A model generated the notes under the pieces. It saw only the letters and a program-made list of their open reading frames with translations, ran no database searches and was not told the origin of the DNA. Below, in pieces: positions 23,656 to 40,680 of a DNA stretch of 40,680 bases; the stretch's first letter is position 1; the number at the start of each line of letters is the position of its first letter. The stretch comes from Microcystis viridis FACHB-1342 (lineage in GTDB: Bacteria; Cyanobacteriota; Cyanobacteriia; Cyanobacteriales; Microcystaceae): NCBI RefSeq assembly GCF_014698335.1, contig NZ_JACJSV010000045.1, positions 1 to 40,680 of the forward strand. Reading direction: 5' to 3'. The position numbers and the translations under genes were made by a program.

Positions 23656-23722
23656 GTAAGAGGGGAGATAAGATAATAAATATTGGTGATTTCACCTGAT
23701 CTTGACTGAGCCTGGGAGTTTT

Positions 23723-24385
23723 ATGAATAGTCTTTTGATTGCGGCTACGGATACCGATGCGGGTAAAACCGTTGTCACCACTGCTTTAGTGGCTTATTGG
23801 CAAAAATACTATCCATCCAAGGCCTTGGGGCTGATGAAATTAATGCAAACGGGTCAAGGCGATCGAGAATGGTATGAGGGCTTATTTCAGGGTCAATTAG
23901 AAATGATCACACCGCTGCAATATCAAGCACCCTTAGCGCCTCCTGTGGCTGCTGATTTGGAAGGTCGAGATATTCCTTTAGGGACAGTGTGGCAAGCTCT
24001 GCTGAACCTACAAAAAAGCCAAGATTTGGTTTTAATTGAGGGTTTGGGGGGTTTAGGTTGTCCTGTCACCCACGAGCTAACTTTGGCGGATTTAGCGGCT
24101 CAATGGCGGTTAAAAACCCTTTTGGTGGTGCCGGTGAAATTGGGGGCGATTTCCCAAACGGTGGCTAATATTGCCCTAGCAGAGCAAAAAAAGGTCAATT
24201 TGGGCGGAATTATCCTTAATTGTCTCGAACCGCGCACGGAGACGGAAATAGAGCAGTTAACACCGATCGATTTAATTCAATCCTTGACTAATTGTCCGGT
24301 TTTAGGTGTTTTTCCCTTTATCGAAGATCGTCGGGATTTGGATAAATTGGCCTCGGTGGTAGCTAGTTGGCCAGAAATTATCTAG
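23723..24385 (+). CDS. bioD: Dethiobiotin synthetase
   Basis: From ATG 23723 the product is 220 aa, starting [24 protein letters not shown]. The P-loop is the BioD form (TDTxxGKT) though with DAGKT rather than the usual [26 protein letters not shown] matches the VEGAGG block, and [18 protein letters not shown] and [10 protein letters not shown] follow. It closes the ureido ring of biotin from DAPA, CO2 and ATP. TTG 23702 is an unlikely earlier start (it adds MTEPGSF). No other biotin gene is next to it. Downstream of its stop, the DNA becomes mobile-element debris. Confidence 0.93.
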
Positions 24386-25236: not shown

Positions 25237-26979
25237 ATGACTATTAACTATGGTGATCTGCAAGAACCCTTTAATAAATTCTCAACCCTAGTTGAATTAC
25301 TCCGTTATCGGGCAAGCAGTCAACCGGAACGCCTCGCCTATATTTTTCTGCGAGACGGAGAAATCGAAGAAGCTCGTTTAACCTATGGGGAACTGGATCA
25401 AAAGGCTAGGGCGATCGCCGCTTATCTACAATCCTTAGAAGCCGAGGGCGAAAGGGGTTTACTGCTCTATCCCCCAGGACTAGATTTTATTTCAGCTTTT
25501 TTTGGTTGCTTGTATGCGGGAGTCGTTGCCATTCCCGCCTATCCACCCCGACGCAATCAAAACCTTTTGCGTTTACAGGCGATTATTGCCGATTCTCAAG
25601 CCCGATTTACCTTCACCAATGCCGCTTTATTTCCCAGTTTAAAAAACCAATGGGCTAAAGACTCTGAATTAGGCGCAATGCAGTGGATTGTTACCGATGA
25701 AATTGACCATCACCTCAGGGAGGATTGGCTAGAACCAACCCTCGAAAAAAACAGTCTCGCTTTTCTACAATACACCTCTGGTTCAACGGGAACTCCAAAG
25801 GGAGTAATGGTCAGTCACCATAATTTGTTGATTAATTCAGCCGATTTAGATGGTGGTTGGGGCCATGATCAAGATAGCGTAATGGTCACTTGGCTACCGA
25901 CCTTCCATGATATGGGTCTGATTTATGGGGTTATTCAGCCTTTGTACAAAGGATTTCTTTGTTACATGATGTCCCCTGCCAGCTTTATGGAACGACCGTT
26001 ACGTTGGTTACAGGCCCTTTCTGATAAAAAAGCGACCCATAGTGCAGCCCCCAACTTTGCCTATGATCTTTGTGTGCGGAAAATTCCCCCTGAAAAACGG
26101 GCCACGTTAGACCTAAGCCATTGGTGCATGGCCTTAAATGGGGCTGAACCCGTCAGAGCGGAGGTACTAAAAAAGTTTGCGGAGGCTTTTCAAGTTTCTG
26201 GTTTCAAAGCCACGGCCCTTTGTCCTGGCTACGGTTTGGCAGAAGCCACCCTGAAAGTTACGGCGGTTAGTTATGACAGTCCCCCTTACTTTTATCCCGT
26301 TCAGGCTAATGCTTTAGAAAAAAATAAGATTGTGGGAGCCACTGAAACCGATACCAATGTGCAGACCCTCGTGGGCTGCGGCTGGACAACGATTGATACT
26401 CAAATCGTCATTGTCAATCCTGAAACCCTGAAACCTTGCTCCCCTGAAATTGTCGGCGAAATTTGGGTATCAGGTTCAACAATCGCCCAAGGCTATTGGG
26501 GAAAACCTCAAGAGACTCAGGAAACCTTTCAAGCTTATTTGGCAGATACAGGAGCCGGGCCTTTTCTGCGAACAGGAGACTTGGGCTTTATCAAAGACGG
26601 TGAATTATTTGTCACAGGTCGGCTCAAGGAAATTATTCTGATTCGAGGACGCAATAATTATCCCCAGGATATTGAATTAACCGTCCAAAATAGTCATCCC
26701 GCTCTGCGTCCCAGTTGTGGGGCTGCTTTTACCGTTGAAAATAAGGGCGAAGAAAAGCTCGTGGTCGTTCAGGAAGTGGAGCGCACCTGGCTCCGTAAGG
26801 TAGATATAGATGAGGTAAAAAGAGCCATTCGTAAAGCTGTTGTCCAGGAATATGATTTACAGGTTTATGCGATCGCGCTGATCAGGACTGGCAGTTTACC
26901 AAAAACCTCTAGCGGTAAAATTCAGCGTCGTAGCTGTCGGGCCAAATTTTTAGAGGGAAGCCTGGAAATTTTGGGCTAA
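25237..26979 (+). CDS. Fatty acyl-AMP ligase (FAAL), loading enzyme of the lipopeptide line
   Basis: The 580-aa product has A3 LQYTSGSTGTPKGVMVSHHN (about residues 176-195), TWLPTFHDMGLIYGVIQPLY, LCPGYGLAEATLKVT, the FAAL-type insertion region with VGCGWTTIDTQIVIVNPET, RTGDLGF, GRLKEIILIRGRNNYPQDIE and the A10 segment SLPKTSSGKIQRRSCRAKF. The composition matches stand-alone FAALs such as CylA or the loading domain of microginin synthetase: it makes an acyl-adenylate from a free fatty acid and passes the acyl group to an ACP instead of CoA. The ACP gene follows after 148 bases. It is the first gene of the co-directional cluster. Chain length cannot be read from sequence. Confidence 0.95.
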   Translation: MTINYGDLQEPFNKFSTLVELLRYRASSQPERLAYIFLRDGEIEEARLTYGELDQKARAIAAYLQSLEAEGERGLLLYPPGLDFISAFFGCLYAGVVAIPAYPPRRNQNLLRLQAIIADSQARFTFTNAALFPSLKNQWAKDSELGAMQWIVTDEIDHHLREDWLEPTLEKNSLAFLQYTSGSTGTPKGVMVSHHNLLINSADLDGGWGHDQDSVMVTWLPTFHDMGLIYGVIQPLYKGFLCYMMSPASFMERPLRWLQALSDKKATHSAAPNFAYDLCVRKIPPEKRATLDLSHWCMALNGAEPVRAEVLKKFAEAFQVSGFKATALCPGYGLAEATLKVTAVSYDSPPYFYPVQANALEKNKIVGATETDTNVQTLVGCGWTTIDTQIVIVNPETLKPCSPEIVGEIWVSGSTIAQGYWGKPQETQETFQAYLADTGAGPFLRTGDLGFIKDGELFVTGRLKEIILIRGRNNYPQDIELTVQNSHPALRPSCGAAFTVENKGEEKLVVVQEVERTWLRKVDIDEVKRAIRKAVVQEYDLQVYAIALIRTGSLPKTSSGKIQRRSCRAKFLEGSLEILG

Positions 26980-27127
26980 GAAAATTTCTCGATCGGCACT
27001 TAATGTGTTAAATTCGTATGTCGATTGAAACTTCGACCAATTCTTTCTCTCCCCTTAAGTCCACGTCTCTGGATTTGAAAATTCCTTAAACTTTAACTAC
27101 ATTTCTAAAGAAAGCAAACTGAGTCTA

Positions 27128-27394
27128 ATGTCCACAGAAATCCCAAACGACAAAAAACAACCGACCCTAACGAAAATTCAAAACTGGTTAGTAGCTTACA
27201 TGACAGAGATGATGGAAGTGGACGAAGATGAGATTGATCTGAGCGTTCCCTTTGATGAATATGGTCTCGATTCTTCTATGGCAGTTGCCTTGATCGCTGA
27301 TCTAGAAGATTGGCTAGGACGAGATTTAGATCGCACGCTGATCTACGATTATCCGACACTAGAAAAGTTGGCGAAACAGGTTAGTGAACCCTGA
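27128..27394 (+). CDS. Stand-alone acyl carrier protein for the FAAL
   Basis: The 88-aa product has a PP-binding fold with FDEYGLDSSMAVALIADLED; Ser-49 in the GLDSS motif is the predicted phosphopantetheine site (the second Ser follows immediately). It ends YDYPTLEKLAKQVSEP. It differs from the fatty-acid-synthase ACP by its DSS motif and resembles the CylB type, which receives the fatty acid from the FAAL and presents it to a CylC-type halogenase. The position between the FAAL and halogenase genes supports this role. A 409-base spacer separates it from the halogenase gene. Confidence 0.93.
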   Translation: MSTEIPNDKKQPTLTKIQNWLVAYMTEMMEVDEDEIDLSVPFDEYGLDSSMAVALIADLEDWLGRDLDRTLIYDYPTLEKLAKQVSEP

Positions 27395-27802
27395 CATTTT
27401 GGGCTGATGGGGTGGCAAGCCGCTTGAAAATGAGACAGGGTGTGGGGTGTGGGGGGTAGGGAAAAAGCTTGGGACTTTTCCCGAAAGTTGGCTAAAAAAT
27501 AACAGTTTTAAAAAACTTGCGTTTTTTGGATCATCCTAGCAAAGATGGATGATTATACTGAGTTCTGGTAAAGTGAATTGTTCGCCAATCCAAAAACGAA
27601 GTGTCCCACTAGGGAGTATTCCCTAAAGGAATCCCATCAAGGTAATCTGACTTCTGACTTGTACCATCAAGAAAGGAAAACCTAGATGAATCCCCCAACA
27701 GCTTAACCCAGAACAACTCATTCAAGTTTATCGACTTGAGCAAACTAACAGCTTGAATTGGCCAAAACAAAAATCATTACTACTATTGAGAAATCTAAAA
27801 TC
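27395..27802. other. 408-bp spacer between ACP and halogenase genes
   Basis: It has a GGGGTGT tandem (27434-27460) and a possible hairpin at about 27500-27525 (AGTTTTAAAAAACTTGCG). At 27703-27832 a frame overlaps the start of the halogenase gene and reads LNPEQLIQVYRLEQTNSLNW; it resembles the N-terminus of an insertion-sequence helper protein. I treat it as a remnant or chance frame. Confidence 0.4.
27434..27460. repeat. STRR-type heptamer tandem (GGGGTGT)
   Basis: GGGTGTGGGGTGTGGGGGG, with two to three heptamers, just after the ACP gene. Confidence 0.55.
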
Positions 27803-29179
27803 ATGTCGGACAGTAACCCTATTGACAATCAGCAATCCCCTAGAACTCTCAAACTGAATAATACTAATTATCGTCACAATCTCGAATCTGACTATACCGA
27901 AAAAATTGAAACCCTTGCAAAAAGCTTTGATTATGCCAGTAATAGTGAGCATCTATGGGGAGACCCTGAACTGTCGATTTTGTATGGAACTCCCCTCTAT
28001 GAACAAGCTTCCGCTTCTCAAAAGTTAGCTCTCAATCATTTATATTGGGGCGCACAGTATGATTACATTGCTGCTAGTGAAGCCAGTACGATTAACTACA
28101 ATCAAGTGACGGCGGGTGTCTTTGCTAAGGTCGGTGGCTACGATTCTCTTTGCTTGACCTTGGATCATGAAAGCAATCAAGAAAAATACCATATCCATGC
28201 CTTTCAAACTATTGGTAGTAAAACAAAATTTGCTCTTTTAGGCAAACAGGCTTTTAAGCTGAAACCCAACAAAAATACTACCAGTAAAGCGGATAAAAGT
28301 AAGAAAATAACCTCAAGAGTGGGAGAACAAATTTTAAATCTTACTTCGGTTTCCTCCTACTCAGAATTGCAATATAAAGGTTTACGTTCTTTAAGTAAAG
28401 CTCTGCTCAACAACTCATCAAAGTATTATTCTTCTCATTTGCTAGATTTAGAGAAAAAAGGTGTATTTCTAAATGCTTCTAACAAAGGCTACTTTGGGGT
28501 GGCAAATCCTCAGTTTTTGCTGCAATTTTTTGCCTTTCATTGGGGCAGTTCTCCCTTTTTAGCCTGTCAGCACTATACCTATCGTTTAACGGGTAATATG
28601 GGCTTAAAAAACTATGAATATCAATATTCTCGCTATTTGAGAGAACTAGAAAGAAAAGGGGAGTTTATTCCTGTTCCTACAGCAGTTTCCCATTATCATC
28701 TTTTAGATGAAGCTTTTCATACCACGACTTCCCAATTGATTGGCCGTGATTTATACAAAGAGTTTTCTAAGCCAACAGCCTATGAACAGTTTATCGGCAA
28801 TTTAGTTTTTTATCGGATGCAACAAGGCTTTTTAGGAAGTTTATCCTTGGGGATGGTGTCTATTTTCCGACAGGATGCTGCTTTTTTATCCTATTACGAT
28901 AAGATTTTGCGTTCTCCTTTGTTTGGAATGTCAGCAGAGGAGTCTCTATATTGGCTAGAAAGATGTTTATGTCAAGAGCATCAGGGCTTCGATGTACAAG
29001 TTAAGTATCATCAAAAAATGCTGAAGAATATGTTACGTTTGACCGATAGTTTGGATTATCTATGGCCAGTTAACCGTGAAATGCGGCTCATGAAAGCTGG
29101 GGGGTCAATTGAACGGGCGATCACCAATAACATTAAAGCTTTTCTTCAATTTAAAGAAACTGTAACCGTATTAAATTAG
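27803..29179 (+). CDS. CylC-like dimetal-carboxylate halogenase
   Basis: From ATG 27803 the product is 458 aa (in-frame TTG 27758 is less likely). The protein is mostly helical, with no signal peptide. Two ExxH motifs fit a ferritin-like dimetal site: EKYH (residues 127-130) in DHESNQEKYHIHAF, and EAFH (303-306) in SHYHLLDEAFHTTTSQ. Glu-93 in IAASEASTINYN and a late Glu/His cluster (ERCLCQEH) are further ligand candidates. This pattern and size match CylC, which chlorinates an unactivated carbon of an ACP-bound fatty acid, as in cylindrocyclophane and in columbamide and chlorinated microginin pathways. The order FAAL-ACP-this gene repeats cylA-cylB-cylC. An AurF-like N-oxygenase is the main alternative but fits the neighbours less well. 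Confidence 0.82.
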   Translation: MSDSNPIDNQQSPRTLKLNNTNYRHNLESDYTEKIETLAKSFDYASNSEHLWGDPELSILYGTPLYEQASASQKLALNHLYWGAQYDYIAASEASTINYNQVTAGVFAKVGGYDSLCLTLDHESNQEKYHIHAFQTIGSKTKFALLGKQAFKLKPNKNTTSKADKSKKITSRVGEQILNLTSVSSYSELQYKGLRSLSKALLNNSSKYYSSHLLDLEKKGVFLNASNKGYFGVANPQFLLQFFAFHWGSSPFLACQHYTYRLTGNMGLKNYEYQYSRYLRELERKGEFIPVPTAVSHYHLLDEAFHTTTSQLIGRDLYKEFSKPTAYEQFIGNLVFYRMQQGFLGSLSLGMVSIFRQDAAFLSYYDKILRSPLFGMSAEESLYWLERCLCQEHQGFDVQVKYHQKMLKNMLRLTDSLDYLWPVNREMRLMKAGGSIERAITNNIKAFLQFKETVTVLN

Positions 29180-29213
29180 AAAAACCGCAGTGAGGAATTT
29201 GAGAGGAATTTGA

Positions 29214-32200
29214 ATGGAACCCATCGCAATTATTGGTCTTGGTTGCCGCTTTCCAGGGGCTGACAATCCAGAGGCTTTCTGGCAACTCATGCGAAATGGG
29301 GTGGATGCGATCGCCGATATTCCTCCTGAACGTTGGGATATTGAGCGTTTCTACGATCCCACACCTGCCACTGCCAAGAAGATGTATAGTCGCCAGGGCG
29401 GTTTTCTAAAAAATGTCGATCAATTTGACCCTCAATTTTTCCGAATTTCTCCCCTAGAAGCCACCTATCTAGATCCTCAACAAAGACTGCTACTGGAAGT
29501 CACCTGGGAAGCCTTAGAAAATGCTGCCATTGTGCCTGAAACCTTAGCTGGTAGCCAATCAGGGGTTTTTATTGGTATCAGTGATGTGGATTATCATCGT
29601 TTGGCTTATCAAAGTCCTACTAACTTGACCGCCTATGTGGGTACAGGCAACAGCACCAGTATTGCGGCTAACCGTTTATCATATCTGTTTGATTTGCGTG
29701 GCCCCAGTTTGGCCGTAGATACCGCTTGCTCTTCTTCCCTCGTCGCCGTTCACTTGGCCTGTCAGAGTTTGCAAAGTCAAGAATCGAACCTCTGCTTAGT
29801 GGGGGGAGTTAATCTCATTTTGTCGCCAGAGACAACCGTTGTTTTTTCCCAAGCGAGAATGATCGCCCCCGACAGTCGTTGTAAAACCTTTGACGCGAGG
29901 GCCGATGGTTATGTGCGCTCGGAAGGCTGTGGAGTAGTCGTACTTAAACGTCTTAGGGATGCCATTCAGGACGGCGATCGCATTTTAGCAGTGATTGAAG
30001 GTTCCGCGGTGAATCAGGATGGTTTAAGTAATGGACTCACGGCCCCTAATGGCCCTGCTCAACAGGCGGTGATTCGTCAGGCCCTGGCAAATGCCAAGGT
30101 AAAACCGGCCCAGATTAGCTATGTCGAAGCCCATGGCACGGGGACAGAATTGGGGGATCCGATCGAAGTTAAATCTCTGAAAGCGGTTTTGGGTGAAAAG
30201 CGATCGCTCGATCAAACCTGTTGGCTCGGTTCTGTGAAAACCAACATTGGTCATTTAGAAGCGGCGGCGGGAATGGCGGGTCTGATTAAAGTCGTTCTCT
30301 GCCTACAACACCAAGAAATTCCCCCTAATCTCCACTTTAAAACCCTTAATCCCTATATTTCCCTAGCTGACACAGCTTTTGCGATTCCCACTCAGGCTCA
30401 ACCCTGGCGGACCAAACCCCCTAAGTCTGGTGAAAACGGTGTCGAACGACGTTTAGCCGGTATCAGTTCCTTTGGGTTTGGGGGGACAAATTCCCATGTG
30501 ATTCTTAGCGAAGCTCCTGTCACCGTTAAAAATAATCAACAAAATGGGCAGAAGTTGATAGAACGTCCCTTGCATTTGCTAACTTTATCTGCCAAGAATG
30601 AAGAAGCCTTAAAAGCCTTAGTCCGTTGTTATCAAAAGTATTTAGCTGATCATCATGAAATTCCTCTCGCTGATGTTTGTTTTACGGCCAATAGTCGGCG
30701 ATCGCACTTTAATCATCGTTTAGGAGTAGTGGCTAGAGATCGCTTAGAAATGTTGCAGAAGTTAGAGAACTTTAGTAACCAAGAAAGGATGAGAGAACCG
30801 AAGAGTATTAACAAAAAGAAAAAACCTAAAATTGTTTTTCTATTTGCCGGTCAAGGTTCTCAATATGTAGGTATGGGTCGTCAACTGTACGAAACCCAAC
30901 CCATCTTTCGCCAAACCTTGGATCGCTGTGCTGAAATCCTGCGACCCCATTTAGATCAACCCCTCTTAGAAATTCTTTATCCTGCTGACCTAGAACCGGA
31001 AAAAGCGAGTTTTTACCTGGAGCAGACTGCCTATACCCAACCTGCTTTATTCGCATTCGAGTATGCCCTAGCACAGTTATGGCGTTCCTGGGGAATAGAA
31101 CCAGCGGCAGTAATTGGTCATAGTGTCGGTGAATATGTGGCGGCTACTGTTGCCGGAGCCTTAAGCTTAGAAGACGGATTAACGCTAATTGCCAAGCGAG
31201 GAAAACTGATGCAATCTCTCCCTCAAGAAGGGACAATGATCGCCGTTTTTGCCGCAGAAGAGCGGGTTAAAGCTGTTATTGAGCCTTATACAAACGAAGT
31301 AGCGATCGCTGCTGTTAATGGACCAGAAAATTTTGTTATTTCAGGAAAAGCGCCGATTATTGCTGAGATTATCATTCATTTAACGGCAGCAGGAATAGAA
31401 GTTCGTCCTCTCAAAGTTTCCCATGCTTTTCACTCGCACCTGTTGGAGCCAATTTTAGATTCCTTAGAACAGGAAGCTGCTGCTATTTCCTACCAACCCC
31501 TGCAAATTCCCTTAGTTGCTAATTTAACGGGGGAAGTTCTACCAGAAGGAGCAACGATTGAGGCTTGTTACTGGCGAAATCATGCACGCAACCCTGTACA
31601 ATTTTATGGGAGTATCCAAACGCTGATCGAGCAGAAATTCAGTCTTTTTTTAGAAGTTAGCCCTAAACCGACTTTATCTCGATTGGGTCAACAATGTTGT
31701 CCAGAAACATCAGCTACCTGGCTATTTTCCCTCGCCCCTCCTCAAGAAGAAGAACAAAGCCTACTAAATAGTTTGGCGATTCTCTATGATTGCCAAGGAG
31801 CCGAAATAAACTGGGAAGGTTTTAATCAAAATTATCCCCACCATTTACTGGCTCTACCGACCTATCCTTTTCAACGTCAACGCTATTGGCTTGAAACCAT
31901 TAAACCGACTTCTGAAGAAACAACCATGACGACCAATGCCACTAATGTCCAAGCTATCTCCAGCAATCAAAAACAACAGGAGATTCTAATCACATTGCAA
32001 ACCCTAGTGGGAAATTTACTGCAATTGTCCCCTGCTGATGTCAATGTTCATACACCTTTCCTGGAGATGGGGGCAGATTCCATTGTCATGGTTGAGGCGG
32101 TCAGACGGATTGAGAATACCTATAACGTTAAAATTGCTATGCGTCAGTTATTTGAGGAGTTATCAAATTTAGATGCTTTAGCTATTTATTTGGCTCAAAA

Positions 32201-35200
32201 TCTGGCTAATGATTTCCAGAATACTCAAGTTAATACCGAGGTGTTTTCTGCGCCCATTGCCTGCTCAAATAACCGATCGCCCAATGTCGTGCTGAGTTCT
32301 AATACCAACGGCTTTCAAGGTCAAACGGCTTCTCCAAAGGTTTCGGCGATCGCCCCAAATAGCACAGTTTCTCAAGAGCCTGTACCACAGCCAAGGGTTC
32401 TGGCAGCATCAGGTTCAAGCGTTCCTAGTTCTGCCCTGGAAAATATTATGGGTCAACAGTTACAACTGATGGCCAAACAGTTAGAGGTCTTGCAAACGGC
32501 CAATTTTGCCCCGACTATCCCCATCAGCAAGGAAAATCCCCCCTCTGCGGTTGATCAAAATAGAGCCAACGGGATTAATCAGAAGTTGATTCCCCCCCAG
32601 CAATTAGCGGCGAACCTAGGGCCAATAGCCAGTCGCACCCGTCAAACCAGTAATCAAGCTTCTGCTCCCCAACCGACAGTAACAGCCACTCCCTGGGGGC
32701 CGAAAAAACCACCCACAGGTGGATTAACTCCCCAACAACAGCAACATCTAGACGCATTAATTGCTCGCTTTACGGAACGTACCAAAACTTCTAAGCAAAT
32801 TGTGCAACGCGATCGCTCTGTTTTAGCAGATAGTCGAGCCTCGGTCGGATTCCGTATGTCCATTAAAGAGATGCTTTATCCCATTGTGGCCCAACGTTCT
32901 CAAGGGTCAAGAATTTGGGATGTGGACGGTAATGAATATATTGATATGACGATGGGGCAAGGGGTAACGCTGTTTGGGCATCAACCTGACTTCATTATGT
33001 CGGCCCTACAAAGCCAACTCGCCGAAGGTATTCATCTCAATCCGCGATCGCCGATAGTGGGAGAAGTGGCCGCCTTAATTTGTGAACTAACAGGAGCCGA
33101 ACGAGCTTGTTTTTGCAACTCTGGAACCGAAGCAGTCATGGCTGCCATCCGTATTGCTAGGGCAACAACAGGTCGCAGTAAAATTGCCATCTTTGAAGGT
33201 TCCTATCATGGCCATGCGGACGGAACCCTTTTTAGAAACCAAATTATTGATAATCAACCCCACTCCCTTCCCCTAGCTCTAGGGGTTCCCCCCAGCCTTG
33301 GTTCCGATGTGGTGGTATTAGACTATGGCAGTGCGGAGGCTTTGGATTATTTAACAAGCCAGGGACAGGATTTAGCGGCGGTCTTAGTAGAACCGGTTCA
33401 AAGTGGCAATCCTCTACTACAACCCAAGCAATTTCTCCAAAGTCTGCGACAAATTACCAGTCAGATGGGCATTGCTCTAATTTTTGATGAAATGATTACG
33501 GGTTTTCGCTCACATCCAGGGGGAGCGCAAGCTTTATTTGGAGTACAGGCGGATATTGCCACCTATGGCAAAGTCGTTGGGGGGGGAATGCCCATTGGGG
33601 TCATAGCGGGTAAGGCCGATTATCTGGACGGCATTGACGGGGGAATGTGGCGTTATGGCGATAAATCCTATCCTGGGGTGGACAGAACCTTTTTTGGCGG
33701 AACCTTTAATCAGCATCCTTTAGCGATGGTGGCGGCTAGGGCTGTTCTTAGCCATTTGAAGGAGCAGGGGCCAGGTCTGCAACAACAATTAACAGAACGC
33801 ACTGCGGCCTTAGCCAATACCCTCAATCGCTATTTTCAAGCAGAAGACGTTCCCATTAAAATTGAACAGTTTAGTTCTTTCTTCCGGTTTGCCCTCTCTG
33901 GCAATTTGGATTTACTTTTTTATCACATGGTAGAAAAAGGTATTTATGTCTGGGAATGGCGTAAACATTTTCTTTCGACAGCCCATACGGAAGCTGATCT
34001 TGCTCAATTTGTCCAAGCGGTTAAAGATAGCGTCACAGAATTGCGTCAGGGAGGTTTTATCCCCGCAAAAAAGCCTTCCTGGTCAGTGCCAACGCCTCAA
34101 ATTGATCCCCCCCTAACCCCCCTTGATAAGGTAGGGAGTGATCAAGTCCCTCTCACCGAAGCCCAGCGACAACTGTGGATTTTGGCCCAATTAGGAGACA
34201 ACGGCTCGACTGCCTATAATCAATCAGTGACATTGCAATTAAGCGGCCCGTTAAATCCCGTTGCGATGACCCGGGCGATTCAACAAATCAGCGATCGCCA
34301 TGAAGCGTTACGAACCAAAATTAATGCCCAGGGAGATAGTCAAGAAATCCTGCCCCAGGTCGAAATTAACTGCCCTATCTTAGACTTCAGTCTTGACCAA
34401 GCTTCGGCCCAACAGCAAGCAGAACAATGGTTAAAGGAAGAAAGTGAAAAACCCTTTGATTTGAGCCAAGGTTCTCTGGTGCGTTGGCATCTACTTAAAT
34501 TAGAACCAGAATTACATTTATTAGTATTAACAGCCCATCACATTATCAGTGACGGTTGGTCAATGGGGGTAATTCTCCGAGAATTAGGAGAGTTATATTC
34601 AGCCAAATGTCAGGGTATTACGGCTAATCTTAAAACCCCAAAACAGTTTCGAGAATTGATTGAATGGCAAAGCCAGCCCAGCCAAGGGGAAGAACTGAAA
34701 AAACAGCAAGCTTATTGGTTAACAACGCTTGTCAATCCGACCGTTTTGAATTTACCCACTGACAAACTTCGTCCAGCTTTACCCAGTTACCAAGCCAATC
34801 GTCAAAGTCTAACTTTAGATAGCCAATTTACAGAAAAACTAAAACAATTTAGTCGTAAACAGGGCTGTACTTTGCTAATGACTCTGTTATCAGTTTATAA
34901 CATTCTCATTCATCGTTTGACGGGACAGGATGATATTCTGGTGGGTCTGCCAGCGTCTGGACGTGGCCTTTTAGATAGTGAAGGAATGGTGGGGTATTGC
35001 ACTCATTTTTTACCCATTCGTAGTCAATTTACAGGGAATCCCACTTTTGCTGATTATCTCAAACAAATGCGGGGGGTTTTGTTGTCGGCTTATGAACATC
35101 AGGACTATCCCTTTGCCTTGTTGCTCAATCAGTTAGATTTACCGCGTAATACCAGTCGCTCTCCTTTAATTGATGTCAGTTTCAATTTAGAACCAGCCAT

Positions 35201-37340
35201 TAATTTACCCAAAATGAAAGGATTAGAGATTAGTTTACTGCCTCAAAAGGTTAGTTTTAGGGATCGAGATTTGCACTTGAATGTGACAGAAATAGGCGGA
35301 GAAGCTCTGGTTGACTGTGACTACAATACGGATTTATTTGAGGATGAAACGATTCAGCGTTGGTTAGGCCATTTCCAAACCTTACTTGAGGCAGTTATTA
35401 ATGATCCGCGACAAAATTTGCGGGAATTGCCCTTATTAAGTCCTGCTGAACGACAACAGTTATTAGTGGATTGGAATGATACCAAGACCGACTATCCTCA
35501 AGATCTGTGTATTCATCAATTATTTGAAGCGCAAGTTGAACGGACTCCCGATGCGATCGCGGTCGTCTTTGAAAACCAACATTTAACATACACCGAGTTA
35601 AATTGTCGAGCCAATCAGTTAGCCCATTATTTGCAAACTTTAGGAGTCGGGCCAGAGGTCTTAGTCGGCATTTTGGTAGAACGTTCTTTGGAAATGATTG
35701 TTGGCTTATTAGGAATTCTCAAAGCTGGGGGAGCCTATGTACCTCTTGATCCTGACTATCCCATTGAACGTCTTCAATTTATGTTAGAAGATAGTCAGGT
35801 TTCATTTTTGATTACCCAACGTTCTTTATTGGCCGTATTACCTCCTTCTCAAGCTAATGTTATTTGTTTAGATGAGATTGAAGAGCAGGTTTCTCAATAT
35901 CCTCAAGATAATCTTCAAAATGGATTAACTATTGCTAGTTTAGCGAATGTGATTTACACCTCTGGCTCTACAGGAAAACCGAAAGGGGTAATGGTTGAGC
36001 ATAAGGGTTTAGTTAATTTAGCTCTTGCTCAAATTCAGCGTTTTGGAGTCAACCATAAGAGCCGTGTGCTGCAATTTGCTTCTTTTAGTTTTGATGCTTG
36101 TATTTCGGAAATCTTGATGACTTTTGGCTCTGGAGCGACTCTTTGTCTTGCTCCAAAAGATGATTTGTTGCCAGGTCAGCCATTAATTGAACAGTTAGTA
36201 AAGAATGGAATTACCCATGTGACTTTGCCGCCTTCAGCTTTAGCGGTTTTACCCAAGGAATTGTTACCCAACTTACAAACCTTAATTGTGGCGGGTGAAG
36301 CTTGTCCTCTGGATTTGGTGAAACAATGGTCGGTGGGAAGAAACTTTTTTAATGCCTATGGTCCAACGGAAACAAGTGTTTGTGCTTCGATTGGACAATG
36401 TTATCAGGATGATTTGAAAGTCACGATTGGTAAGGCGATCGCCAATGCCCAAATTTACATTTTAGATTCTTATCTTCAGCCATTACCTATCGGGGTGGTC
36501 GGAGAATTGCACATTGGCGGGGTTGGTTTGGCGCGGGGTTATTTAAACAGGCCTGAGTTAACGGCGGAGAAATTTATTGCAAATCCGTTTGCTTCCCTTG
36601 ATCCCCCCCTAACCCCCCTTGATAAGGGGGGAGAGCAACCATCAAAATTGTATAAAACGGGAGATTTAGCCCGTTATTTACCCGATGGCAATATTGAGTA
36701 TCTGGGACGGATTGATAATCAGGTCAAAATTCGCGGTTTTCGCATTGAGTTAGGAGAAATTGAAGCGGCTTTACTTTCCCATCCTCAGGTACGAGAAGCG
36801 GTAGTTTTGGTGAATGAAAGCGATCGCCCTGAAGATCGGGCTTTGGTAGCCTATGTTGTCCTTAATGATCCTGCTTGTACGACTCAATCATTACGAGAGT
36901 TTGTTAAACGGCAACTTCCCGACTACATGATTCCCGCCTATTGGCTTGTGCTAGAAAATTTACCGTTAACCAACAATGGCAAAATTGATCGTCGTGCGTT
37001 ACCGTTGCCCAATCCAGAGTTACATCGTTCGGTAGATTATGTGGCTCCTGACAATCCTACCCAGGAGGCGATCGCCGCTATTTTTGGTCAAGTTTTAAAA
37101 CTGGAAAAAGTAGGAATTGATGATAATTTTTTTGAGATTGGTGGTAATTCTTTGCAAGCCACTCAAGTTATTTCAAGGTTACGAGAAAGTTTTGCCCTAG
37201 AGTTACCCCTGCGTCGTCTGTTTGAACAACCGACTGTGGCGGATTTGGCTTTAGCCGTAACGGACATTCATGCCACTTTACAAAAACTACAAACCCCTAT
37301 TGATAACTTATCAGGCGATCGCGAGGAAATTGAACTATGA
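29214..37340 (+). CDS. Hybrid PKS-aminotransferase-NRPS (KS-AT-ACP-AMT-C-A-PCP)
   Basis: The 2708-aa product starts at ATG 29214, with GAGAGGA about 6 bases upstream. Domains: KS (1-430; Cys-172, His-307, His-347), AT (about 540-870; Ser-637 in GHSVGE, HAFH at 737, so malonyl-type), ACP (Ser-956), class III PLP aminotransferase (about 1210-1620; IFDEMITGFR, Lys-1453), C domain (HHIISDGWS at 1775), A domain (A3 at about 2248) and PCP (Ser-2646). There is no KR, DH or monooxygenase domain, so the beta-keto group reaches the aminotransferase and becomes a beta-amine. Specificity code read by hand: D-A-S-T-I-A-A-V-C(-K), Tyr-like. The acidic tail DREEIEL fits docking to the TubC domain of the next protein. 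Two copies of a palindromic repeat lie in frame (about 34104 and 36600). Confidence 0.95.
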   Translation: MEPIAIIGLGCRFPGADNPEAFWQLMRNGVDAIADIPPERWDIERFYDPTPATAKKMYSRQGGFLKNVDQFDPQFFRISPLEATYLDPQQRLLLEVTWEALENAAIVPETLAGSQSGVFIGISDVDYHRLAYQSPTNLTAYVGTGNSTSIAANRLSYLFDLRGPSLAVDTACSSSLVAVHLACQSLQSQESNLCLVGGVNLILSPETTVVFSQARMIAPDSRCKTFDARADGYVRSEGCGVVVLKRLRDAIQDGDRILAVIEGSAVNQDGLSNGLTAPNGPAQQAVIRQALANAKVKPAQISYVEAHGTGTELGDPIEVKSLKAVLGEKRSLDQTCWLGSVKTNIGHLEAAAGMAGLIKVVLCLQHQEIPPNLHFKTLNPYISLADTAFAIPTQAQPWRTKPPKSGENGVERRLAGISSFGFGGTNSHVILSEAPVTVKNNQQNGQKLIERPLHLLTLSAKNEEALKALVRCYQKYLADHHEIPLADVCFTANSRRSHFNHRLGVVARDRLEMLQKLENFSNQERMREPKSINKKKKPKIVFLFAGQGSQYVGMGRQLYETQPIFRQTLDRCAEILRPHLDQPLLEILYPADLEPEKASFYLEQTAYTQPALFAFEYALAQLWRSWGIEPAAVIGHSVGEYVAATVAGALSLEDGLTLIAKRGKLMQSLPQEGTMIAVFAAEERVKAVIEPYTNEVAIAAVNGPENFVISGKAPIIAEIIIHLTAAGIEVRPLKVSHAFHSHLLEPILDSLEQEAAAISYQPLQIPLVANLTGEVLPEGATIEACYWRNHARNPVQFYGSIQTLIEQKFSLFLEVSPKPTLSRLGQQCCPETSATWLFSLAPPQEEEQSLLNSLAILYDCQGAEINWEGFNQNYPHHLLALPTYPFQRQRYWLETIKPTSEETTMTTNATNVQAISSNQKQQEILITLQTLVGNLLQLSPADVNVHTPFLEMGADSIVMVEAVRRIENTYNVKIAMRQLFEELSNLDALAIYLAQNLANDFQNTQVNTEVFSAPIACSNNRSPNVVLSSNTNGFQGQTASPKVSAIAPNSTVSQEPVPQPRVLAASGSSVPSSALENIMGQQLQLMAKQLEVLQTANFAPTIPISKENPPSAVDQNRANGINQKLIPPQQLAANLGPIASRTRQTSNQASAPQPTVTATPWGPKKPPTGGLTPQQQQHLDALIARFTERTKTSKQIVQRDRSVLADSRASVGFRMSIKEMLYPIVAQRSQGSRIWDVDGNEYIDMTMGQGVTLFGHQPDFIMSALQSQLAEGIHLNPRSPIVGEVAALICELTGAERACFCNSGTEAVMAAIRIARATTGRSKIAIFEGSYHGHADGTLFRNQIIDNQPHSLPLALGVPPSLGSDVVVLDYGSAEALDYLTSQGQDLAAVLVEPVQSGNPLLQPKQFLQSLRQITSQMGIALIFDEMITGFRSHPGGAQALFGVQADIATYGKVVGGGMPIGVIAGKADYLDGIDGGMWRYGDKSYPGVDRTFFGGTFNQHPLAMVAARAVLSHLKEQGPGLQQQLTERTAALANTLNRYFQAEDVPIKIEQFSSFFRFALSGNLDLLFYHMVEKGIYVWEWRKHFLSTAHTEADLAQFVQAVKDSVTELRQGGFIPAKKPSWSVPTPQIDPPLTPLDKVGSDQVPLTEAQRQLWILAQLGDNGSTAYNQSVTLQLSGPLNPVAMTRAIQQISDRHEALRTKINAQGDSQEILPQVEINCPILDFSLDQASAQQQAEQWLKEESEKPFDLSQGSLVRWHLLKLEPELHLLVLTAHHIISDGWSMGVILRELGELYSAKCQGITANLKTPKQFRELIEWQSQPSQGEELKKQQAYWLTTLVNPTVLNLPTDKLRPALPSYQANRQSLTLDSQFTEKLKQFSRKQGCTLLMTLLSVYNILIHRLTGQDDILVGLPASGRGLLDSEGMVGYCTHFLPIRSQFTGNPTFADYLKQMRGVLLSAYEHQDYPFALLLNQLDLPRNTSRSPLIDVSFNLEPAINLPKMKGLEISLLPQKVSFRDRDLHLNVTEIGGEALVDCDYNTDLFEDETIQRWLGHFQTLLEAVINDPRQNLRELPLLSPAERQQLLVDWNDTKTDYPQDLCIHQLFEAQVERTPDAIAVVFENQHLTYTELNCRANQLAHYLQTLGVGPEVLVGILVERSLEMIVGLLGILKAGGAYVPLDPDYPIERLQFMLEDSQVSFLITQRSLLAVLPPSQANVICLDEIEEQVSQYPQDNLQNGLTIASLANVIYTSGSTGKPKGVMVEHKGLVNLALAQIQRFGVNHKSRVLQFASFSFDACISEILMTFGSGATLCLAPKDDLLPGQPLIEQLVKNGITHVTLPPSALAVLPKELLPNLQTLIVAGEACPLDLVKQWSVGRNFFNAYGPTETSVCASIGQCYQDDLKVTIGKAIANAQIYILDSYLQPLPIGVVGELHIGGVGLARGYLNRPELTAEKFIANPFASLDPPLTPLDKGGEQPSKLYKTGDLARYLPDGNIEYLGRIDNQVKIRGFRIELGEIEAALLSHPQVREAVVLVNESDRPEDRALVAYVVLNDPACTTQSLREFVKRQLPDYMIPAYWLVLENLPLTNNGKIDRRALPLPNPELHRSVDYVAPDNPTQEAIAAIFGQVLKLEKVGIDDNFFEIGGNSLQATQVISRLRESFALELPLRRLFEQPTVADLALAVTDIHATLQKLQTPIDNLSGDREEIEL
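34104..34139. repeat. In-frame palindromic repeat, copy in AMT-C linker
   Basis: GATCCCCCCCTAACCCCCC then TTGATAAGGTAGGG; it encodes DPPLTPLDKVG in the linker between aminotransferase and C domain. The right arm has a T that breaks the palindrome. Confidence 0.75.
36600..36634. repeat. In-frame palindromic repeat, copy in first A domain
   Basis: It encodes DPPLTPLDKGG between A6 (GYLNRPELTAEKFIANPF) and A7 (LYKTGDLAR). Intact A domains have a short loop here. The palindrome CCCCCCTTGATAAGGGGGG is complete. Confidence 0.85.
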
Positions 37341-40300
37341 AATCTATTGAAACCTTTTTGTCAGATTTAGCCAATCAAGATATTAAACTCTGGATGGACG
37401 GCGATCGCCTGCGTTGTAATGCTCCCCAGGGCCTATTGACCCCAGAGATTCAAACAGAACTGAAAAACCGTAAAGCAGAAATCATTCAATTTCTTGAGCA
37501 ACTGGGTTCAGAGGAGCAGGTTAGCTCTAGAACCATTCTTCCGACTGCCCGTGATACCCAATTACCCCTCTCCTTTGCCCAGGCGCGACTTTGGTTTCTG
37601 TATCAATTAGAAGGAGCCACAGGAACCTATAACATGACAGGGGCCTTGAGTTTAAGCGGGCCTCTTCAGGTCGAAGCCCTCAAACAAGCCCTAAGAACCA
37701 TCATTCAGCGTCATGAATCACTACGTACCAGTTTTCAATCGGTTGACGGGGTTCCAGTGCAGGTGATTAATCCCTATCCTGTTTGGGAATTAGCGATGGT
37801 TGATTTGACAGGAAAGGAGACAGAAGCAGAAAAATTGGCCTATCGGGAATCCCAAACCCCCTTTGATTTAACCCAGAGTCCTTTACTGAGGGTAACGCTC
37901 CTCAGATTGCAACCGGAAAAGCATATTTTATTAATTAATATGCACCATACTATTTCTGATGGCTGGTCAATCGGTGTTTTTGTTCGTGAATTGTCCCATC
38001 TCTATGGGGCTTTTGTTGCGGGTAAAGAACCAACTTTACCGACTTTACCAATTCAATATGCCGATTTTGCTGTTTGGCAGCGAGAGTGGTTACAGGGTAA
38101 GGTTTTAGGGACTCAATTGGAATATTGGAAGCGACAATTGGCAGATGCTCCTCCTCTGCTGGAACTGCCCACTGATCGCCCTCGTCCCGCAATCCAAACC
38201 TTTCAAGGCAAGACAGAAAGATTTGAGCTAGATAGGAAACTGACCCAAGAATTAAAGGCATTAAGTCAACAGTCGGGTTGTACTTTATTTATGACTTTGT
38301 TGGCCGCTTTTGGGGTGGTTTTATCCCGTTATAGTGGCCAGACTGATATCGTCATTGGTTCGGCGATCGCCAACCGTAATCGCCAAGACATTGAGGGGTT
38401 AATTGGCTTTTTTGTTAACACTTTGGCGTTGAGGTTAGATTTATCAGAAAAACCCAGCTTTGCCGCTTTTTTAAAACAAGTACAGGAAGTCACTCAGGAT
38501 GCCTATGAGCATCAAGACTTGCCCTTTGAAATGTTAGTGGAAGAATTACAACTAGAGCGCAAATTAGACCGTAATCCCCTTGTTCAGGTGATGTTTGCCC
38601 TTCAAAATGCGGCCAATGAAACCTGGAATTTACCTGGGTTGGCTATTGAAGAAGTGTCTTGGGAGCTTGATTCTGCCCGTTTTGACTTAGAGATTCATTT
38701 ATCAGAAGTTAACGACGGCATAGCTGGATTCTGTTGCTACAACATTGACTTATTTGATGGCTCAACGATCGCCCGTCTATTGGAACATTTTCAGAATCTT
38801 CTCAGGGCGATTATTGTTAATCCTCAAGAGTCGGTAAGCCTATTACCTTTATTGTCAGAACAGGAACAAAAGCAACTTTTAGTTGATTGGAATCAAACCC
38901 AAGCCGATTATCCTAAAGATAAGCTTGTCCATCAGTTATTTGAAGCTCAAGCAGTCAGTCAGCCAGAGGCGATCGCGCTCATCTTTGAAAATCAAGCTTT
39001 AACCTATAGAGAATTAAACAATCGTGCCAATCAGTTAGCCCACTATCTTCAGTTATTAGGGGTTAGTCAAGAACAAATCGTCGGAGTCTATTTTGACCGT
39101 TCTTTAGAGATGGTAATCGGACTTTTAGGGATTCTCAAAGCAGGAGCGGCCTATCTCCCTATTGATCCAGAATATCCCTCAGTACGCACCCAATTTATCC
39201 TCGAAGATACTCAACTTTCGCTCCTCTTAACCCAAGCGAAACTGGCAGAAAAACTCTCCCAAACTCAAACCCAAATTATCTGCCTAGATAGAAACTGGCC
39301 AGAGATTGCATCCCGGCCTCAGACAAACCCAGACCTAAAGGTAGAATCCAGTCATCTAGCCTATTGTATTTATACCTCTGGTTCCACAGGACAACCCAAA
39401 GGCGTACTAATTCCCCATCAAGCCTTACTCAATTTAATCAGTTGGCATCAACAAACTTTTCAGCTTAGTTCTTTAGATAAAACGACCCAATTAGCTGGAG
39501 TTGCTTTTGATGCTATGGTTTGGGAATTATGGCCTTCTCTCGCCGCAGGGGCTTGTATTCATCTGGTTCCCCAAAATATTTTGGTTTCACCAACAGATTT
39601 ACGCGATTGGTTACTTAATCAAGAAATTACCATTAGTTTTGTGCCAACCCCTGTAGCCGAAAAATTATTATCCTTGGATTGGCCTGAGCATTCTTGCCTC
39701 AAAACCCTGTTACTGGGGGGTGACAAACTTCATTTTTATCCTGCTGCGTCCCTTCCCTTTCAGGTGATTAACAACTATGGCCCAACGGAAAATACAGTGG
39801 TTGCGACCTCTGGACTGGTCAAATCACCAACGTTCGATCACTTTTCGGCCCCGACCATCGGTAAGGCGATCGCCAACGTCCAAATCTATTTACTAGACCA
39901 AAACCTACAACCTGTACCGATTGGTGTACCAGGAGAATTACATTTAGGCGGAGCAGGGTTAGCACGAGGTTATCTCAATCGCCCTGAGTTAACGGCTGAA
40001 AAATTTATTGCCAATCCCTTTGATCCCCCCCTAACCCCCCTTGATAAGGGGGGAGAAGAACCCTCAAAACTCTATAAAACGGGAGACTTAGCCCGTTATT
40101 TACCCGATGGCAATGTAGAATTTTTGGGACGTATTGACAATCAGGTAAAAATTCGGGGTTTTCGCATCGAAATTGGAGAAATTGAAACCGTTTTAAGTCA
40201 ATATTTCCTCTTAGCTGAAAGTGTAGTCGTTGCCAAGGAAGATAATACTGGGAATAAACGTCTCGTTGCTTACCTGGTTCCTGCCCTGCAAAATGAGGCC

Positions 40301-40680
40301 CTACCAGAGCAATTAGCTCAATGGCAAAATGAATATATCAGTGATTGGCAGAGTCTCTATGAAAGAACCTATAGTCAAGGGCAAGACAGCCTAGCTGATC
40401 TCACTTTTAATATCACGGTTTGGAATAGCAGTTATACCCGCCAACCGCTTCCTGCTTCAGAGATGCGAGAGTGGGTTGAAAACACTGTTAGTCGCATCTT
40501 AGCCTTGCAACCAGAACGCGGTTTAGAAATTGGTTGTGGTACAGGTTTGTTACTCTCCAGGGTAGCAAAGCATTGTCTTGAATATTGGGCAACGGATTAT
40601 TCCCAAGGGGCGATCCAGTATGTTGAACGGGTTTGCAATGCCGTTGAAGGTTTAGAACAGGTTAAATTACGCTGTCAAAT
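37337..40680 (+). CDS. NRPS with TubC docking, C, A and start of N-methyltransferase (cut by window edge)
   Basis: The start codon overlaps the previous stop by ATGA. The visible 1114 residues begin with a TubC_N-type docking domain (MKSIETFLSDLANQDIKLWM...RCNAPQGLLTPE, 1-55). A C domain follows (MHHTISDGWSIGV around 200), then an A domain (YTSGSTGQPKGV around 677, YKTGDLARYLPDGN near 915). The A domain carries an inserted methyltransferase start (LEIGCGTGLLLSRVAKH around 1063) before its final subdomain, the usual site of N-methyltransferases. Specificity code read by hand: D-A-W-F-L-G-N-V-V(-K), the code of Leu in McyB module 1. An N-methyl-Leu residue is predicted. The palindromic repeat lies in the A domain (40022-40054). 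The PCP and later modules are beyond the window. Confidence 0.93.
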   Translation, partial: MKSIETFLSDLANQDIKLWMDGDRLRCNAPQGLLTPEIQTELKNRKAEIIQFLEQLGSEEQVSSRTILPTARDTQLPLSFAQARLWFLYQLEGATGTYNMTGALSLSGPLQVEALKQALRTIIQRHESLRTSFQSVDGVPVQVINPYPVWELAMVDLTGKETEAEKLAYRESQTPFDLTQSPLLRVTLLRLQPEKHILLINMHHTISDGWSIGVFVRELSHLYGAFVAGKEPTLPTLPIQYADFAVWQREWLQGKVLGTQLEYWKRQLADAPPLLELPTDRPRPAIQTFQGKTERFELDRKLTQELKALSQQSGCTLFMTLLAAFGVVLSRYSGQTDIVIGSAIANRNRQDIEGLIGFFVNTLALRLDLSEKPSFAAFLKQVQEVTQDAYEHQDLPFEMLVEELQLERKLDRNPLVQVMFALQNAANETWNLPGLAIEEVSWELDSARFDLEIHLSEVNDGIAGFCCYNIDLFDGSTIARLLEHFQNLLRAIIVNPQESVSLLPLLSEQEQKQLLVDWNQTQADYPKDKLVHQLFEAQAVSQPEAIALIFENQALTYRELNNRANQLAHYLQLLGVSQEQIVGVYFDRSLEMVIGLLGILKAGAAYLPIDPEYPSVRTQFILEDTQLSLLLTQAKLAEKLSQTQTQIICLDRNWPEIASRPQTNPDLKVESSHLAYCIYTSGSTGQPKGVLIPHQALLNLISWHQQTFQLSSLDKTTQLAGVAFDAMVWELWPSLAAGACIHLVPQNILVSPTDLRDWLLNQEITISFVPTPVAEKLLSLDWPEHSCLKTLLLGGDKLHFYPAASLPFQVINNYGPTENTVVATSGLVKSPTFDHFSAPTIGKAIANVQIYLLDQNLQPVPIGVPGELHLGGAGLARGYLNRPELTAEKFIANPFDPPLTPLDKGGEEPSKLYKTGDLARYLPDGNVEFLGRIDNQVKIRGFRIEIGEIETVLSQYFLLAESVVVAKEDNTGNKRLVAYLVPALQNEALPEQLAQWQNEYISDWQSLYERTYSQGQDSLADLTFNITVWNSSYTRQPLPASEMREWVENTVSRILALQPERGLEIGCGTGLLLSRVAKHCLEYWATDYSQGAIQYVERVCNAVEGLEQVKLRCQ
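40022..40054. repeat. In-frame palindromic repeat, copy in second A domain
   Basis: It encodes DPPLTPLDKGG in the same A6-A7 loop as the copy at 36600, with almost the same flanks (FIANPF before, SKLYKTGDLAR after). Confidence 0.85.

Follow-up and report, generated by a model that had tools for sequence, protein, structure and literature searches.

Microginins are small, chlorinated lipopeptides that inhibit proteases. The microginin (mic) cluster of Microcystis aeruginosa LEGE 91341 was reportedly expressed in a heterologous host by Eusebio et al. 2022. Microginin clusters contain two to six nonribosomal peptide synthetase (NRPS) modules (PMC12250027), CylC homologues within them have already been published (PMC8406957), and recombination has been described as a source of microginin diversity (PMC8097286). 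In the puwainaphycin synthetase, the paired aminotransferase (AMT) and monooxygenase (MO) domains were proposed to form a 3-amino-2-hydroxy acyl group (PMC4219810), and a similar AMT-MO proposal was made for tychonamide-like clusters (PMC13252402). Planktothrix rubescens PCC7821 makes oscillaginins A and B (PMC9366434), which carry 3-amino-2-hydroxydecanoic acid (Ahda; PMC12250027), and microginins of the 3-aminodecanoic acid (Ada) type also exist (table of PMC12250027). Here, we describe a mic cluster in Microcystis viridis FACHB-1342, whose genome comprises 4.70 Mb in 138 contigs with an estimated completeness of 99.97%. The window analysed is an entire contig of 40,680 bases (NZ_JACJSV010000045.1, hereafter C79). 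We propose, with a probability of about 0.77, that the cluster is a microginin assembly line giving an Ada-type product, whose MO domain was probably deleted at the repeats that bordered it. The chemistry of the cluster is known, and its residue order is its own. All cluster genes, from position 25237 to the contig end, lie on the plus strand and, with the repeats discussed below, are as follows.

25237..26979, plus strand: MicA, a fatty acyl-AMP ligase (FAAL; Pfam AMP-binding, 7.7e-68).
27128..27394, plus strand: MicB, a stand-alone acyl carrier protein (ACP) with a GLDS motif, assigned by homology.
27803..29179, plus strand: MicC, a putative CylC-like dimetal-carboxylate halogenase, counted from its ATG start (the open reading frame (ORF) call begins at 27758, with TTG).
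29214..37340, plus strand: MicD, 2708 aa, with ketosynthase (KS), acyltransferase (AT), ACP, AMT, condensation (C), Tyr-type adenylation (A) and peptidyl carrier protein (PCP) domains and no MO.
34101..34146, plus strand: in-frame palindromic repeat between AMT and C, at the place taken by MO in other mic clusters; a probable deletion scar.
37337..40678, plus strand: start of MicE, TubC-C-A (Leu-type)-methyltransferase (MT), cut inside MT by the contig end and continued on contigs C38 and C47.
40021..40054, plus strand: in-frame copy of the dispersed palindromic repeat in the MicE adenylation domain.

Five other mic clusters match this one in gene order and in sequence: those of LEGE 91341, S464, Planktothrix agardhii No66, PCC7821 and genome G281. 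LEGE 91341 shares the gene order after bioD, the separate FAAL, ACP and halogenase, the lack of MO and a terminal ABC transporter, but its MicE is a single module without MT (1145 aa) and its MicF contains two modules (2492 aa). PCC7821 has the same start genes, AMT, C-A-PCP, TubC-C-A-MT and thioesterase (TE), whereas it carries MO between AMT and C and bears the cluster on a plasmid. No66 resembles the present cluster in lacking MO, in the repeat at its AMT-C junction and in the MicE code DAWFLGNVV with MT, and differs in the form of that junction, in having one N-methylating module and a Ser-type first code, and in being plasmid-borne. The complete mic cluster of G281 (L088-L089) is chromosomal and includes MO; the genome, of 7.9 Mb, belongs to the same family and another genus.

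A luciferase-like MO lies between AMT and C in three of these six clusters (S464, PCC7821 and G281) and is absent from the other three (this genome, LEGE 91341 and No66). One scan of genome contigs gave three mic loci, which together with those of No66, G281 and this genome make up the six compared; 388 genomes from the order were searched, and among the matches listed, G281, G354, G384 and G225 were followed; a match in G138 is probably the PCC7821 plasmid, judged by its contig number and position. The S464 MO matches TIGR04020 at 517.9 bits (cut-off 244.45), and its nearest PDB entry is PuwE, 6ket. As a query, it returned no match in this genome and a single match among 12 genomes of the genus, within that of S464 itself; for LEGE 91341, absence was judged from the AMT-C junction together with zero MO matches in its genome (G009). 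2-Hydroxylation is common in microginins and not universal; the domain for it is not present in this cluster. Because MicD lacks MO and the genome holds no match, Ada is expected here, as in LEGE 91341; a first-pass annotation of this DNA had supposed Ahda, which is not supported.

The presence of MO agrees with chemistry in the two strains whose products are known, PCC7821, with MO, yielding Ahda, and LEGE 91341, without it, yielding Ada. That the product here carries Ahda all the same, hydroxylated by an enzyme encoded outside the cluster, is very improbable: a hydroxylase of another family could escape the MO query, and most microginins in the PMC12250027 table are listed with Ahda, yet no MO match occurs in a genome of this estimated completeness, and LEGE 91341, with the same scar and likewise no match, has a listed microginin mass that fits Ada.

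The site that MO occupies elsewhere is marked in MicD by the palindromic repeat at 34101..34146. The genome carries 75 copies of its 15-base core on each strand, compared with 0 and 1 copies of the reversed control, and the variant AAGGTAGG was found at 34 places in eight of the 12 genus genomes (control, 0). In S464, the left border of MO holds a 33-base unit twice and the right border holds its exact reverse complement; this right border reads as two exact units plus a variant where one contig ends, and as three exact units plus a variant where the overlapping contig begins. PCC7821 has the repeat only to the right of MO, and G281 has one copy to the left, at a different place, and several decayed copies to the right. 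Compared with the S464 left border, the scar shows three mismatches in 87 bases through CTTGATAAGG and then follows the right border; the exact breakpoint cannot be placed because the AAGGTAGG variant occurs elsewhere. The AMT-C junction of LEGE 91341 is nearly the same as the scar here; that of No66 differs, joining a PCC7821-type left flank without the repeat directly to the right-hand repeat. Two different MO-less junctions at the same kind of element suggest that MO was lost at least twice.

At even odds, we would extend this to the proposal that dispersed in-frame repeats in cyanobacterial polyketide synthase (PKS)-NRPS genes act as points of domain deletion, MO having been lost there at least twice with a change from Ahda to Ada. 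REP-like repeats direct insertion sequence (IS) elements to mcy genes (PMC9366434), and other chromosomal Planktothrix clusters were said in the same paper not to contain those motifs. A link between the repeat and MO loss in mic was not found in the literature searched, which did not extend to the original description of LEGE 91341, and is apparently unreported.

Copies of the repeat also occur within the A domains. Encoding the peptide DPPLTPLDKGG, the repeat stands in frame in all four A domains of the line, each time just before LYKTGDL (window positions 36613-36640 and 40021-40054, about position 2831 of L003, and a diverged copy in MicF on L009).

With Pfam E-values of 2e-47 to 9e-123, the matches to FAAL, KS, AT, AMT, C and A domains are not due to chance. 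The nearest PDB entries to MicA are 7r7e-g and other FAALs, and its identity to the G281 and S464 counterparts is 92-94%; MicB, outside the Pfam calls, is 94-99% identical to the ACP of three other mic clusters. Catalytic motifs are intact in KS (DTACSSS, EAHGTG, NIGHLE), AT (GHSVGE with HAFH) and TE (GWSMG), as are the carrier-protein serines, the AMT lysine motif and HHxxxDG in all four C domains. The partial MT of MicE is weak in Pfam (2e-6, under the curated cut-off); its S-adenosylmethionine motif, GCGTG, was seen, and the full MT of relatives aligns with it. KS-AT-ACP-AMT in MicD forms one PKS module with an aminotransferase, as expected for a beta-amino acid. PuwE likewise places a PKS module with AMT between its PKS and NRPS parts (PMC4219810), but it has an MO and MicD does not. 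The Rfam scan of the window gave no match, and the tRNA scan found no tRNA.

The first-pass annotation had read FAAL, ACP, a CylC-like enzyme, KS-AT-ACP-AMT-C-A-PCP and TubC-C-A-MT in one direction with a four-base overlap of the last two genes, and Pfam, motifs and homology confirm the whole series, the MicD/MicE overlap being ATGA at 37337-37340. Its assignment to the microginin type, with a beta-amino acid and a halogenase, is likewise supported by the domains, the mic homology and conserved residues. Loading and halogenation do reside on separate proteins, as it had stated; this is no unusual trait, since all six mic clusters share the layout.

MicC matches AurF in Pfam below threshold (E 1.3e-4) and gave no NCBIfam match and no PDB match by sequence. 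It is putatively identified as CylC-like from its homology to proteins of mic clusters and of other cyanobacterial origin, together with conserved residues: E93, E127xxH130, E272, H299 and E303xxH306 are invariant in all nine aligned CylC-like proteins, the frame-broken PCC7821 copy having been omitted from the alignment. We take the series E, ExxH, E, H, ExxH to be AurF-pattern metal ligands, and MicC thereby presents the conserved carboxylate/histidine metal-ligand pattern of CylC-type halogenases. Identity among the Microcystis mic clusters is 85-97%. An AlphaFold model of MicC from three input sequences had a mean pLDDT of 31 and was set aside. In the plasmid record of PCC7821 (L015 1400-7802), the halogenase does not keep to a single frame, and an ORF resembling an IS insertion interrupts MicD; the literature names ISPlr1. 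An IS within the PCC7821 mic cluster is reported (PMC9366434), and oscillaginins A and B are nonetheless reported for the strain.

MicE continues past the end of this contig. C79 and C38 (3,476 bases) end in the same 101 bases, and the first 101 bases of C38 correspond exactly to the reversed first 101 bases of C47. Such 101-base end overlaps are the pattern expected of a collapsed repeat with contigs overlapping by one k-mer, and the repeat joining the three has no contig of its own in the assembly. With two entries (C79 and C38) and two exits (C38 and C47), the path would run C79-repeat-C38-repeat-C47, unless C38 is circular, and it may include more than one C38-type unit. C38 contains A10-PCP-C-A and the start of an MT, and C47 contains the end of MicE, MicF (TubC-C-A-PCP-TE, 1417 aa) and a 667-aa ABC transporter. 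The near-identical MT domains of both MicE modules were collapsed in the assembly, leaving MicE cut over three contigs. Complete MicE would comprise two tandem N-methylating C-A-MT-PCP modules, followed by the C-A-PCP-TE of MicF. If this contig order holds, four A domains and one TE are spread across C79, C38 and C47, which places the line within the mic range of NRPS modules with a terminal TE and a nearby ABC transporter. This order is consistent with that in LEGE 91341, whose mic cluster has bioD before it and a DUF1995 gene after it.

This continuation also bears on the class of the product. An FAAL-ACP-CylC-PKS start is common to several type I PKS clusters (PMC8406957) and PuwE has AMT and MO domains (PMC4219810), but five other mic clusters match in gene order and sequence, and the linked contigs encode a short NRPS ending in TE. 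This leaves a negligible probability for other lipopeptide classes that start in this way (puwainaphycin, columbamide, chlorosphaerolactylate). Puwainaphycin clusters place MO after AMT and have a longer NRPS for a cyclic peptide, neither of which was found here. The puwainaphycin/columbamide class was accordingly rejected on the short, TE-terminated NRPS of the linked contigs and the five matching clusters, and extension downstream of the window revealed modules that fit a microginin rather than an unrelated lipopeptide.

The A-domain codes, read by script with two MicE-1 positions read by eye, are DASTIAAVC in MicD, DAWFLGNVV in MicE-1, DASTIAAVC in MicE-2 (C38) and DVQFIAHVV in MicF; we take DASTIAAVC to specify Tyr, DAWFLGNVV Leu and DVQFIAHVV Pro. 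In LEGE 91341, the codes read Pro, DLG-SGAVC, Pro and Tyr. Its microginin 773 is listed at 774.34 and, in the table, as Cl2Ada (PMC12250027); this value is that of protonated Cl2Ada-Pro-Hph-Pro-Tyr (773.332 + 1.007, computed; Hph, homophenylalanine), and the same code reading therefore agrees with this compound. PMC12250027 gives Phe at the Hph place, and the mass of Phe does not fit. The codes of No66 point to Ser, MeLeu and Tyr. Its products, put. Mic 548, 582 and 616 (PMC9366434), fit Ada-Ser-MeLeu-Phe with 0, 1 and 2 Cl, provided that the numbers refer to neutral masses, other residue sets being isobaric; because they fit Phe better than the predicted Tyr, the codes cannot be taken as certain. 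The A domain of MicE-2 shares 80% identity with that of MicD and 61% with the neighbouring MicE-1 domain, which, judged from sequence, is a sign of A-domain copying within the cluster.

In the proposed pathway, MicA would activate octanoate and load MicB, MicC could chlorinate the acyl chain, and MicD would add one malonate to reach C10, with AMT converting the 3-keto to a 3-amino group. Without MO, no 2-hydroxyl would be introduced and the first residue would be Ada. MicD would then add Tyr, MicE would add N-MeLeu and N-MeTyr in turn, and MicF would add Pro, its TE releasing the linear peptide; MO itself would have been removed by deletion at the palindromic repeats on its borders. From the genes, domains, motifs, overlaps, MO absence and repeats observed, the predicted product is (Cl0-2)-3-aminodecanoyl-Tyr-NMeLeu-NMeTyr-Pro (monoisotopic 751.452, 785.413 and 819.374), in which acyl length, substrates, chlorination and colinearity are each predicted. 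Tyr first and N-MeLeu second, as annotated earlier, are supported by the A codes and MT, but the chain does not end there, as the linked contigs add a second N-methylating module, of Tyr type, and then one of Pro type with TE. Microginins 99-A and 99-B of NIES-99 share the order Tyr, Leu, MeTyr, Pro, with masses that fit Ada; their Leu is listed without N-methyl (PMC12250027), and the product predicted here, close to 99-A, is 14 Da heavier.

Several points weigh against an Ada-type line that lost its MO by deletion. Trees of AMT and of C, with nine rows each, both require the MO label to change three times, for which one gain and two losses would suffice, and the label is no more clustered than in shuffles (for clusters with MO, 310 of 500 were as low for AMT and 305 of 500 for C). 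The C tree groups LEGE 91341 with the MO-bearing S464 and not with this genome, and the two trees place No66 differently; together these indicate that the domains have recombined, and the shared scar may have been spread by recombination. The contig order was deduced from graph logic rather than reads, and the residues assigned to the codes are predictions. Furthermore, the text of PMC12250027 says that the LEGE 91341 structures contain Ahda, contrary to its own table (Cl2Ada) and to the mass, and names microginin 99-A as ClAda in the text and ClAhda in the table; the listed mass of 772.37 fits ClAda (772.38 average, computed).

The same trees leave room for the opposite direction of change, in which the MO-less form was original in Microcystis, S464, PCC7821 and G281 gained MO, and the junction repeat is an unrelated insertion. 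The direction of the three parsimony changes is not fixable on so few rows, and a more distant cluster, in G354, also lacks MO; the distant G384 and G225, on the other side, both have AMT-MO-C. Among the three clusters with MO, the identity of MO (92.8-95.2%) is no lower than that of AMT and C in the same pairs (88.1-92.6%), by which MO looks as old as its neighbours. The junction element could be an ordinary copy, given that the AAGGTAGG variant is found elsewhere, but its left part almost reproduces the left MO border of S464, and its right part follows the right border. Overall, we consider a gain unlikely; loss is more likely, favoured about three to one, and the change was probably a deletion.

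The cluster lies next to a gene conserved in the genus:

23702..24385, plus strand: bioD-like gene (AAA_26), the left neighbour of the mic island.

Both bioD and the DUF1995 gene occur in all 12 genus genomes. Besides this genome and LEGE 91341, stretches from nine of the ten others were examined as 10 regions; G005, where the two genes are far apart, was not included. In G004, G008, G011, G012, G013 and G014, a distance of 4 to 12 kb separates them and holds a long gene, in two pieces in G014, whose translation begins like that of the 1206-aa gene of C47; the C47 gene, the only copy scanned, matches an Eco57I-type methylase (3.2e-33). The two genes are 26 bases apart in G006, bioD adjoins the long gene on one contig in G007, and G010 shows no visible link. 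Here, mic sits between bioD and the 1206-aa gene. Homology to five mic-free references stops near the bioD stop and, in four of the five, resumes at the end of the 1206-aa gene, from which we conclude that, here as in LEGE 91341, mic forms an island at this position. S464 carries mic elsewhere. The long gene that separates the mic island from the DUF1995 gene is an Eco57I/MmeI-like restriction-modification gene (L009 2613-6233), with a similar gene at the site in most genus genomes examined. On the No66 plasmid (L012 1-16452), the annotation places the DISARM-type defence genes drmD, drmA and drmC, together with an MmeI-type gene, immediately ahead of mic.

Taken together, the clusters offer a simple genotype-to-chemotype rule with a visible probable scar, in which an MO domain means Ahda and its absence means Ada, and which can be tested wherever the microginins of a sequenced Microcystis or Planktothrix are known. 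Microginins 99-A and 99-B showed no leucine aminopeptidase inhibition at 100 ug/mL (PMC12250027), and the rule may help to explain this inactivity, since their listed masses fit Ada. If the deletion reading is true, loss of MO changes a group that may matter for the binding of metallo-aminopeptidases.

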